NCBI GenBank assembly: GCA_017539165.1
Contig: JAFYHN010000021.1
Span: 1-36,031, forward strand
Length of the DNA stretch: 36,031 nt
From: Eubacterium sp.
GTDB lineage: Bacteria; Bacillota; Clostridia; Lachnospirales; Lachnospiraceae
Direction: 5' to 3'
The notes under the pieces were generated by a model. That model had not been told where the DNA came from. It did no database searches and was given only the letters and a program-made list of their open reading frames with translations. Positions 20,731 to 28,459 of the stretch are shown one piece after another; the stretch's first letter is position 1, and each line of letters opens with the position of its first letter. Position numbers and translations under genes: made by a program.

Positions 20731-20775
20731 GAAAAATATGACAGTTGAAATCTGATTTCAACTGTCATATTTTTC
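20731..20775. terminator. Perfect 45-nt palindrome between convergent genes (copy 2 of a repeat)
   Basis: The sequence 20728-20775 is identical to 1691-1738. Here it lies 7 nt after the oadG-like stop and 18 nt from the end of the convergent GH16 gene, where it can terminate both transcripts. Confidence 0.85.
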
Positions 20776-26733: not shown

Positions 26734-27231
26734 TTACATTCTTTTCTTTATCATATGTCCTTCCTGTACTGCTGCGAATGTTGCCACGGCACTGACGATT
26801 ACTTCGCTGAATTTCAAATCAATAAAAGTAACTGTCAATGGAAAAACGAACAACAGTATTCCCGTCACCTTATTCATTACTGTATGTTGGACAACCAATT
26901 CCTTTCGGATCACATATCCATAAATCAGATTGATTACCTTGATTGCAGCAATCGCAATGATCCAGATGAAAAGCCACATCGGGATATGAAGTGCTGGAAT
27001 CAACTTTATCAAACATACTACAACCAGAACAAAATCGGCCACAGTATCAAACTTCGATCCAAACTCACTGACGTTCCCTGTTTTCCTAGCAACTGTCCCA
27101 TCTACCATGTCACTGATCCCAGCAATGATATACAGAGTATAAAAAGTATTTGAAAACAACGGACTGAACAGCAATGCAATACTGCATACGATTCGAATCC
27201 CAGTTATGACATTTGCCATTTTAATTTTCAT
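26734..27231 (-). CDS. CDP-alcohol phosphatidyltransferase family protein
   Basis: The 165-residue membrane enzyme contains the complete family motif D-x2-DG-x2-AR-x8-G-x3-D-x3-D (DMVDGTVARKTGNVSEFG, then SKFDTVAD; about residues 41-66) that binds metal and the CDP group. It is the size of phosphatidylglycerophosphate synthases (about 165-190), and the N-terminus KMANVITGIRIVCSIAL is typical of PgsA/PssA-like proteins. The alcohol substrate is not certain. A GGAGCAGG site precedes the ATG. Confidence 0.9.
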   Translation of the reverse strand: MKIKMANVITGIRIVCSIALLFSPLFSNTFYTLYIIAGISDMVDGTVARKTGNVSEFGSKFDTVADFVLVVVCLIKLIPALHIPMWLFIWIIAIAAIKVINLIYGYVIRKELVVQHTVMNKVTGILLFVFPLTVTFIDLKFSEVIVSAVATFAAVQEGHMIKKRM

Positions 27232-27331
27232 TGTCCTGCTCCATTACCTAAAATAATAAGATTTCTATAAGACTATAACACATAACGTCCCCCTACAACA
27301 AACGAATCATCTTCCAGCAGAAAAATAAAAA

Positions 27332-27352
27332 AGCCACTTAATTTAAGTAGCT
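27332..27352 (-). terminator. Terminator facing out of the hairpin-array region
   Basis: On the minus strand AAGCTACTT pairs with AAGTGGCTT (one G-U pair) followed by TTTTATTTTT. No minus-strand gene ends here, so it would terminate an RNA coming from the structured region above 27353. Confidence 0.7.
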
Positions 27353-27390
27353 TAATTAAAAATTCAAAACTATGAACCAGCTCTTTGCTC

Positions 27391-27576
27391 CATGGTTGCT
27401 TTGCAACCATGCAATCCTTGCTACGCAAGTCTTGATTCTGCTACGCAGAACGAGTCTGCACTTTGTGCAGATCCTCGATTACTAAGTAATCGAGGACTAA
27501 CTTGGAGAAGGTATTTTGTTACTTATAGGGCGGGGATCTAGAGGGATACCTCTTGTCTTATAGAGGCTTGTAGGCC
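27391..27576. repeat. Array of consecutive triloop hairpins (structured RNA or palindromic element)
   Basis: Five perfect hairpins, each with a 3-nt loop, follow one another: 27391-27411 (9-bp stem), 27417-27429 (5 bp), 27436-27450 (6 bp), 27455-27471 (7 bp) and 27472-27496 (11 bp); the last two touch without spacer. Two more short hairpins lie at 27540-27553 (AGAGG/CCTCT) and 27565-27576 (GGC/GCC). Spacers are 0-6 nt. The stretch lacks a convincing ORF. Read on the minus strand it would end at the terminator 27332-27352. It may be a non-autonomous palindromic element or a non-coding RNA; I cannot assign a family. Confidence 0.6.
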
Positions 27577-27668
27577 GCATAAATACTGGATTTTTTAGTC
27601 AATTTTGTTACGCATCTTAGGTATTATAGTTTACATAATATGCAGTAGATATCCATTATTATACAATT

Positions 27669-27788
27669 TTAAAACTTTTTTGCTACTCTTTTACCAATCT
27701 TATCACCTATAGGCTCCCATATATCCTTATATTTCTCCTGTAGGAGTTTCTGCATCTGTTGCATTTCGTTTATAGTAAAGTCACTCAT
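27669..27788 (-). pseudogene. 39-residue ORF resembling the N-terminus of a MazG-like pyrophosphohydrolase
   Basis: The ORF has a good ribosome site (GAGGA, 8 nt) and reads MSDFTINEMQQMQKLLQEKY then KDIWEPIGDKIGK and VAKKF. The first 30 residues look like the start of the ~110-residue MazG-like nucleotide pyrophosphohydrolases, in which the segment is followed by KLLWMIGEIGEV; here the frame stops early. It is probably a truncated remnant, though a real small protein is possible. Confidence 0.45.
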
Positions 27789-27808
27789 ATTTAATCCTCA
27801 TATATGTA

Positions 27809-27830
27809 TTCGCTGGTAAACAAAACCGAA
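27809..27830. repeat. Recurring 22-nt intergenic motif, copy 1
   Basis: On the minus strand TTCGGTTTTG-T-TTA followed by CCAGCGAA, located 20 nt after the histidine phosphatase stop and 21 nt before the 39-residue ORF. It matches 28485-28506 at 19 of 22 positions, the differences being transitions. Confidence 0.5.
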
Positions 27831-27850
27831 ATCTAATTCATTTTGAATAT

Positions 27851-28459
27851 TTACAAAATATAAGACATATCATTAATATGCCTTACTCGATGTTTACCGT
27901 CATCACCGACAATCATATGAGATACACCGCCTGCTGGCCCATGTATATCTACGTTATAATATGATTCAACCGATAAACCCAAATACATTGCATTCCAAAG
28001 GCTCAAAAGATCTCCATGAAATACAATGATAATATACTCTTCATCATTTGCCATTATTTCTTCAAAGAAAGGCAATAGACGCTTCCAAGCATCACGACGA
28101 CTCTCTCCATCCGAGAACAATTTATCATCAACGGTTTGTTCCGGACCTTCCATATTCTCACGAAGCCACTGCACAGATTTTCCGCAACACTTACCAAGAT
28201 TACGTTCTCTCAATTCACTTCGGAGTACTGGTTTTACTCCCATATATTTAGCAATTTCTTCGGCTGTCTGTTTTGCACGCTTTAAATCCGATGAATATAT
28301 GACTACTTTTTTATCGGTAAGCTCATCTTTTAACTTATTTCCAATATGATCAGCCTGACTTTTCCCAAGTTCTGTAAGATCCCAATCAGTCCAAGAGCCT
28401 ACCATTCCATTTGTGTGATGAACTGATTGTGTATGCTGAACAGTGATGATATGTTTCAT
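27851..28459 (-). CDS. Histidine phosphatase family protein
   Basis: A 202-residue member of the histidine phosphatase (phosphoglycerate-mutase-like) superfamily. The usual RHG motif is replaced by QHTQS in IITVQHTQSVHHTNG (residues 4-18), so the nucleophile would be His10; WTDWDLTELGKSQADHIG and IYSSDLKRAKQTAEEIA (about 54-70) follow the family, and FHGDLLSLWN (about 150-159) gives the second catalytic His. Substrate unknown. The ATG at 28459 has AGGAGAG upstream; the ATG at 28480 has none. Confidence 0.85.
   Translation of the reverse strand: MKHIITVQHTQSVHHTNGMVGSWTDWDLTELGKSQADHIGNKLKDELTDKKVVIYSSDLKRAKQTAEEIAKYMGVKPVLRSELRERNLGKCCGKSVQWLRENMEGPEQTVDDKLFSDGESRRDAWKRLLPFFEEIMANDEEYIIIVFHGDLLSLWNAMYLGLSVESYYNVDIHGPAGGVSHMIVGDDGKHRVRHINDMSYIL

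Follow-up and report, generated by a model that had tools for sequence, protein, structure and literature searches.

A 36,031-nucleotide stretch from Eubacterium sp. (contig JAFYHN010000021.1), which we call the window, contains a compact array of five short hairpins. We think that this array is probably a copy of a mobile, non-autonomous DNA element, which we call the comb, and that the comb may be recognized as folded, single-stranded DNA. In the mechanism that we favor, recognition would be of the minus strand of the window in a single-stranded DNA fold, which would contain C(GNA)G triloops and G.A mismatches. An enzyme that is encoded elsewhere would insert the comb and leave no clear duplication of the target site. 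Hairpins would be kept in lineages that are still moving, and dead copies would decay.

The hairpin array

Between positions 27391 and 27496 of the window, there are five triloop hairpins, with loops of TTT, TAC, TAC, TTT, and TAA on the plus strand and stems of 5–11 bp. This is just as an earlier note on this sequence had described them. We call the hairpins A to E; their perfect stems are 9, 5, 6, 7, and 11 bp. Hairpin A is at 27391–27411 (9 bp, loop TTT), hairpin C is at 27435–27451 (6 bp plus an A.C pair at the base, loop TAC), and the last two hairpins abut, as had been noticed: D is at 27455–27471 (7 bp, loop TTT) and E is at 27472–27496 (11 bp, loop TAA). All five were said to be perfect. 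The triloop hairpins are indeed there, but the perfect stem of hairpin B (27417–27429, loop TAC) is nested within a longer, imperfect hairpin at 27412–27434. A GC-xxx-GC core was attributed to four of the hairpins, but only three have it; the fourth and fifth have AC-xxx-GT instead. As for two additional hairpins proposed at 27540–27576, our scan found a 5-bp stem at 27540–27553, but the second one is weak and was absent from the scan.

The entire insertion extends from about 27387 to about 27501 on the plus strand. These ends are approximate by 1–2 bases and were placed using the terminator of a small RNA in relatives that lack the insertion (see below). The plus strand of the window has the consensus orientation, with the hairpins in the order A to E.

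The array is real, and it pairs with itself far more than shuffled sequence does. RNA folding of 27375–27580 gave z = -5.49 for the minus strand and -5.61 for the plus strand, relative to shuffles, and DNA folding of 27388–27497 gave z = -9.02 and -9.09 for the two strands. The predicted DNA energies of the two strands of this copy are nearly equal (-34.9 vs. -34.0 kcal/mol). Across the whole window, there are 9 perfect triloop hairpins with a stem of at least 7 bp, while 2.75 were expected, and 3 of the 9 are within the 106-bp array.

The window also contains two copies of a different repeat, which is a single long palindrome (1689–1743 and 20731–20775, with stems of 26 and 21 bp). The sequence common to these is GAAAAATATGACAGTTGAAAT. 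The window's own genome has 82 matches to this repeat, counting both strands.

The comb family and its distribution

We aligned 43 copies of the comb as one unit of about 110 bp, with hairpins A to E in a fixed order. These copies were chosen by hand (the window, a copy from genome G004, 37 of 47 parsed copies, and four others), so the set leans towards well-kept copies. The parsed copies came from a pattern scan with 81 hits; 16 of these lacked a clear A or E hairpin and another 18 had short flanks, so we left them out. Double changes occur in 28 of the 40 stem pairs. Overall, 92.0% of cells are paired, vs. 79.7% in shuffles, and there are 200 cells with double changes, vs. 47.9 in shuffles. 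Compensatory changes in the stems, which the earlier note had proposed looking for, are thus abundant.

A covariance model built from the 43 copies (with a short calibration) matches the window copy at 27388–27497 with a score of 98.8 bits (E = 1.3e-20). With the best 63 candidates scored, the model has matches in at least 50 of 61 genomes from the genus (the Eubacterium ruminantium group). The counts, which are for the best 63 candidates and may include both strands of one copy, were at least 30 in G070, 27 in G003, 22 in G016, 17 in G033, 17 in G084, and 4 in the window's genome. Among 146 genomes from the order, including the window's own, matches were found in 3: the window's own and, weakly, two others (E = 3e-4 and 1e-3).

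Homologs were also apparent with blastn. Across the window's genome and 60 relatives, 32 genomes out of 61 had a match. All of these were in the genus (32 of 37, counting the window's own), while the 24 other genomes had none. These matches represent two separate things, namely a 29-base core to the right of the array and the array itself, which is multicopy in some genomes.

To look more broadly, we compared the exact pattern of hairpins B and C to 84,980 species genomes. This gave 77 stretches, all of them titled Lachnospiraceae or Eubacterium, including E. ruminantium ATCC 17233 and strain AC2031. Viral contigs had zero exact matches to one pattern, and phage records had just three short matches (E = 0.6). 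Every copy of the comb sits on a bacterial genome contig. As far as tested by these sequence comparisons, the comb appears to be confined to rumen Lachnospiraceae of the Eubacterium ruminantium group. We found no description of such an element in the open-licence papers that we searched.

Outside of combs, the loci L082–L158 (some of which overlap) have 2.25 perfect triloop hairpins (stem of at least 7 bp) per 10 kb, vs. 0.60 under a Markov model. In 52 of 113 of these non-comb hairpins, the loop is GNA or TNC, and some of them may be partial combs.

The host site of the window copy

The 29-base core lies at 27502–27530 on the minus strand, just outside the element, and is kept in relatives: blastn matched it in 29 of 37 genomes of the genus. 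We consider this conserved core to be part of a candidate small RNA. In the relatives, the core runs directly into a minus-strand hairpin terminator. In the window, as well as at the same place in G004 (where the array is 94% identical), the element separates the core from the terminator. We infer from this comparison that the window comb was inserted between the candidate small RNA's core and its terminator.

The old terminator is truncated in the window, and the next one downstream is an intrinsic terminator at 27331–27353 on the minus strand. This is the terminator that had been placed at 27332–27352 and described as an orphan with no gene to serve. On the minus strand, it is downstream of both the core and the array, so the orphan label is doubtful and the core would be a possible client, although no minus-strand promoter was matched in 27220–27860. 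The core had no Rfam family match in the window or in seven comb or small-RNA loci.

The candidate small RNA (CCCCATAAGTAACAAAATACCTTCTCC within the minus-strand core) is present in the window and in L009, L031, L032, and L040. In relatives, a TATAAT-like box and C-rich stretches precede the core, as judged by eye. Repeats resembling GGTACAAATTGGTACAA and a CCCGCATAAAYACTG motif lie beside the core in L009, L023, and L032. They occur in several genomes and may mark the integration site of a larger element.

In G004, whose comb is the closest relative of the one in the window, hairpins B and D are broken, as would be expected of a decaying copy.

Filled and empty sites

The earlier note suggested that the array could be a mobile palindromic element, and that presence or absence at orthologous loci should be checked. 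Both filled and empty sites exist. The tRNA-Met gene of strain AC2031 (locus L101) is interrupted in the anticodon loop, while it is whole in relatives (L159, L160, and L161): the uninterrupted sequence GGTTCTTCATACGGAC corresponds to TTCATATCAGC...GGCACAACGGAC in L101. A tRNA-Gln gene in L154 is interrupted just before the anticodon loop, and its homolog in L101 is whole. (ARAGORN calls the L154 gene tRNA-Glu; we named it from the homolog.) Two loci (L108 and L062) contain, next to an intact tRNA-Asn gene, a second copy that has a degenerate 5' part and an insertion in its anticodon loop. Here the comb has the opposite orientation from the other tRNA insertions. Finally, in L039 the element lies between ACCCGCAT and AAACACTG, beside the candidate small RNA, and these sequences are adjacent in L032 (L040 differs by one base). 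L009, which is from the window's genome, has the same insertion in the small-RNA flank as L039. A search with joined flanks (97 flanks) gave at least 249 spanning alignments, many of them between paralogous tRNAs or composites, and we used only the sites named here.

At the sites that allow a judgment, we saw none of the target-site duplications that the note had asked for as evidence of a mobile element. There is no duplication at the tRNA-Asn or L039/L032 sites, and these are the only two kinds of site that allow a clean call. The tRNA-Met and window sites have 0 or 1 base left, and the tRNA-Gln site lacks a good reference.

Combs also tend to group by genome: 29 of 86 copies have their nearest neighbor in their own genome, as compared to a mean of 4.6 and a maximum of 15 when shuffled. 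The dispersed copies, the existence of filled as well as empty sites, the five identical combs of G070 (described below), and the two orientations relative to tRNA genes all support the mobile-element half of the note's proposal.

Could the combs in tRNA genes be introns? With introns allowed, ARAGORN fits introns in the tRNA-Met of L101 and in one gene of L154. Both loci contain large clusters of tRNA genes (L101, 5272–7583; L154, 28–1607), with 19 and 12 genes found without introns, and the combs are inside as well as between the tRNA genes. Also, G005 has a weaker match elsewhere (79% over 56 bases) to the tRNA kind that reads CAT in other loci. Because of these large clusters, the differing insertion points and orientations, and the match in G005, introns seem less likely to us, and we read the combs in tRNA genes as putative inactivating insertions.

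Pairing in DNA or in RNA

The note's other suggestion was a non-coding RNA with a comb-like fold. More specifically, the five stems could be a structured RNA or a module for RNA processing or termination, which in the window would be on the minus strand along with the small-RNA core. The strong covariation of the stems would fit with this, as would the strand-specific conservation of loops and mismatches (see below) and the minus-strand terminator after the array.

RNA stems tolerate G-U pairs on the transcribed strand but not A-C pairs. Across the 40 pairs in 95 distinct copies (from the first 109 of 150 rows of the model-fitted alignment), we counted 3368 Watson-Crick cells, 28 G.T cells, and 26 A.C cells. 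An alignment from MAFFT agrees (1547 Watson-Crick, 18 G.T, and 12 A.C). As a control, we used the acceptor stems of 149 distinct tRNAs from the same loci, which were counted if at least 5 of the 7 acceptor pairs were Watson-Crick. These gave 904 Watson-Crick, 115 G.T, and 0 A.C (p = 7e-16, Fisher test of G.T vs. A.C). So, of the features by which Rfam-type families are judged, covariation is present but tolerance of G-U on one strand is absent (28 G.T and 26 A.C, vs. 115 and 0 for tRNA). Since G.T is no more common than A.C in combs, unlike in tRNAs, the pairing is kept without regard to which strand is transcribed, and it seems to be maintained at the DNA level.

Other observations also argue against an RNA. 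Combs are found in both orientations within tRNA genes. Their orientation relative to the local coding strand is not biased (32 to 42 of 74, p = 0.30). This result, which gives no sign of a preference for one replication strand, also weighs against the mechanism that we favor. The gene pairs around these 74 copies were 6 convergent, 12 divergent, and 33 tandem, which is not an enrichment between convergent genes. The two broken hairpins of G004 weigh against an RNA, and at Rfam's gathering scores, the window had no matches and the seven comb or small-RNA loci matched only tRNAs. On balance, we consider a functional RNA to be quite unlikely.

Covariation is normally taken to prove that an RNA is functional, yet this family covaries strongly without the wobble signature. 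The comb would be a worked case of DNA-level structure passing for RNA, and comparing G-U to A-C, with tRNA stems from the same loci as the control, is a simple test.

Tandem G.A pairs are stable in DNA. In the paired columns of the 95 copies, there are 183 T.C mismatches on the plus strand but just 4 G.A, so it is the minus strand that has G.A; some of the T.C mismatches are at innermost positions, which are part of the loop in shorter hairpins. The triloops are GNA on the minus strand in 229 of 376 cases and on the plus strand in 5, and the closing pair is C-G in 340 of 376. (Because the copies are related, the loop and pair counts are not independent.) The C(GNA)G minihairpin is an established DNA fold, which PMC4686876 describes as extraordinarily stable. 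Given the GNA triloops and G.A mismatches of the minus strand, this strand probably adopts a fold as single-stranded DNA at some step. The copy in the window is weak evidence for such a fold: of its loops, just the two TAC ones are GNA when read on the minus strand, and the predicted energies of its strands are nearly equal.

How pairing changes as copies diverge

Among copies that are at least 95% identical, single-sided changes outnumber double changes by 45 to 3. At 90–95% identity, double changes account for 37 of 83 differing pairs (45%), and at 60–70% identity, they reach 79%. The excess of single-sided changes between the closest copies weighs against the mechanism that we favor. The pattern as a whole fits the decay of single copies combined with selection on the lineages that keep moving.

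Alternatively, template switching during replication might make and repair the stems, so that the pairing would be a by-product of mutation and the hairpins would have no role in movement. According to PMC8794818, one such event can make or mend a perfect stem, which would yield double changes without G-U intermediates, and double changes are already frequent at 90–95% identity. However, if template switching acted alone, single-sided changes would not be expected to dominate at the shortest distances, and it leaves both the fixed order of A to E and the filled and empty sites unexplained. As the sole cause, template switching lacks support at these distances, and we think that it is very unlikely to be the main explanation.

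Larger composites and the search for an enzyme

Some combs lie within larger repeats. G070 contains five identical combs inside versions of a MITE-like carrier of about 330 bp, one of which has a different left end. The ends of the carrier (L214–L218) resemble GATGTGGGTGTCAAAAGT and GACTTTTGACACTTATGTCAT. For 13 of 65 copies, flank complementarity exceeds the 99th percentile for cross-locus pairs, over as many as about 70 bases. The outer stems are alike within one subfamily (L082, L137, and L139), and because they resemble each other, we assign them to a larger element; in the G003 copies, the outer stems largely differ between loci. In L087, L090, L100, L105, and L127, combs are at the center of imperfect inverted repeats of 30–70 bases whose sequence is specific to the locus.

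These composites raise the question of whether the comb is a passenger, that is, palindromic filler of larger elements (MITE-like repeats or composites with outer stems) that does not move by itself. The identical copies in the G070 carrier, the complementary flanks, and the subfamily with common outer stems would all be consistent with a passenger. On the other hand, combs with no carrier interrupt tRNA-Met, tRNA-Gln, tRNA-Asn, and the small-RNA flank, and we view a passenger as unlikely. We also considered a general insertion into hairpin loops, as 13 of 65 copies exceed the percentile, but the outer stems of one subfamily recur from locus to locus, and we keep this idea only within the more specific proposal below.

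Returning to a comb that moves by itself, we looked for its enzyme. Among 296 reading frames near 94 copies, the families present at three or more loci were transporter-like or other, and no transposase was recognized by eye. Of the 61 genomes of the genus, 36 have Y1 transposases, but G033, G016, and G084, which are rich in combs, have no Y1 match. Conversely, no combs were found at 30 Y1 loci, which gave a single match of 15 bases (E = 0.95). We rejected a Y1 (RAYT) partner on both grounds, and these negative results weigh against the mechanism that we favor.

A more specific proposal is that combs are a new class of mobile element in prokaryotes, whose substrate is a row of C(GNA)G minihairpins in single-stranded DNA. 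Such an element would insert flush and without duplication, would prefer hairpin loops (including the anticodon loops of tRNAs), and would be moved by an enzyme not yet linked to such repeats. We put this forward as a possibility, but a doubtful one. If the single-strand reading is true, then this genus offers a natural experiment in which to look for the enzyme that moves such hairpins, with the tRNA genes providing empty sites.

Comparison with known systems

REP and BIME repeats, with their RAYT (Y1 HUH) transposases, are interspersed hairpins with a strand-specific folded form and a step in single-stranded DNA. The comb is similar in having interspersed hairpins and, probably, a strand-specific fold with a step in single-stranded DNA, but it has no Y1 partner and its hairpins vary by compensation. 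In the attC sites of integrons, it is one folded DNA strand that matters, and the structure is kept while the sequence varies. This resembles the one-strand fold that we propose for the comb, except that attC is a single hairpin and the comb has five.

BOX and RUP are among the small interspersed repeats of bacteria, along with RU-1/ERIC (PMC2759123). Like the comb, the bacterial MITEs and small interspersed repeats are short, non-coding, multi-copy, mobile, and palindromic, with no enzyme of their own. The comb is non-coding, multi-copy, and dispersed as MITEs are, but it is five separate hairpins with compensatory changes instead of one long palindrome. It also lacks MITE-type terminal inverted repeats: by inspection, its left end is TGTGCC or similar and its right end is AGCTGA or similar, and these are not inverted copies of each other. 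The comb acts like a small non-autonomous palindromic repeat, but without terminal inverted repeats or a Y1 partner.

Among the papers that we saw, the closest parallels to the comb are the repetitive and double-hairpin elements and GC clusters of mitochondria (PMC2800124 and PMC4478555), which are mobile arrays of hairpins with no known enzyme and with lineage-specific invasions. For the Allomyces elements, a lack of flanking duplications was reported (as cited in PMC2800124). These elements are organellar, while combs are on bacterial genome contigs. Also, the sponge mitochondrial elements keep their stems and vary their loops, and the comb does the reverse: its stems vary, with compensation, and its loops are constrained.
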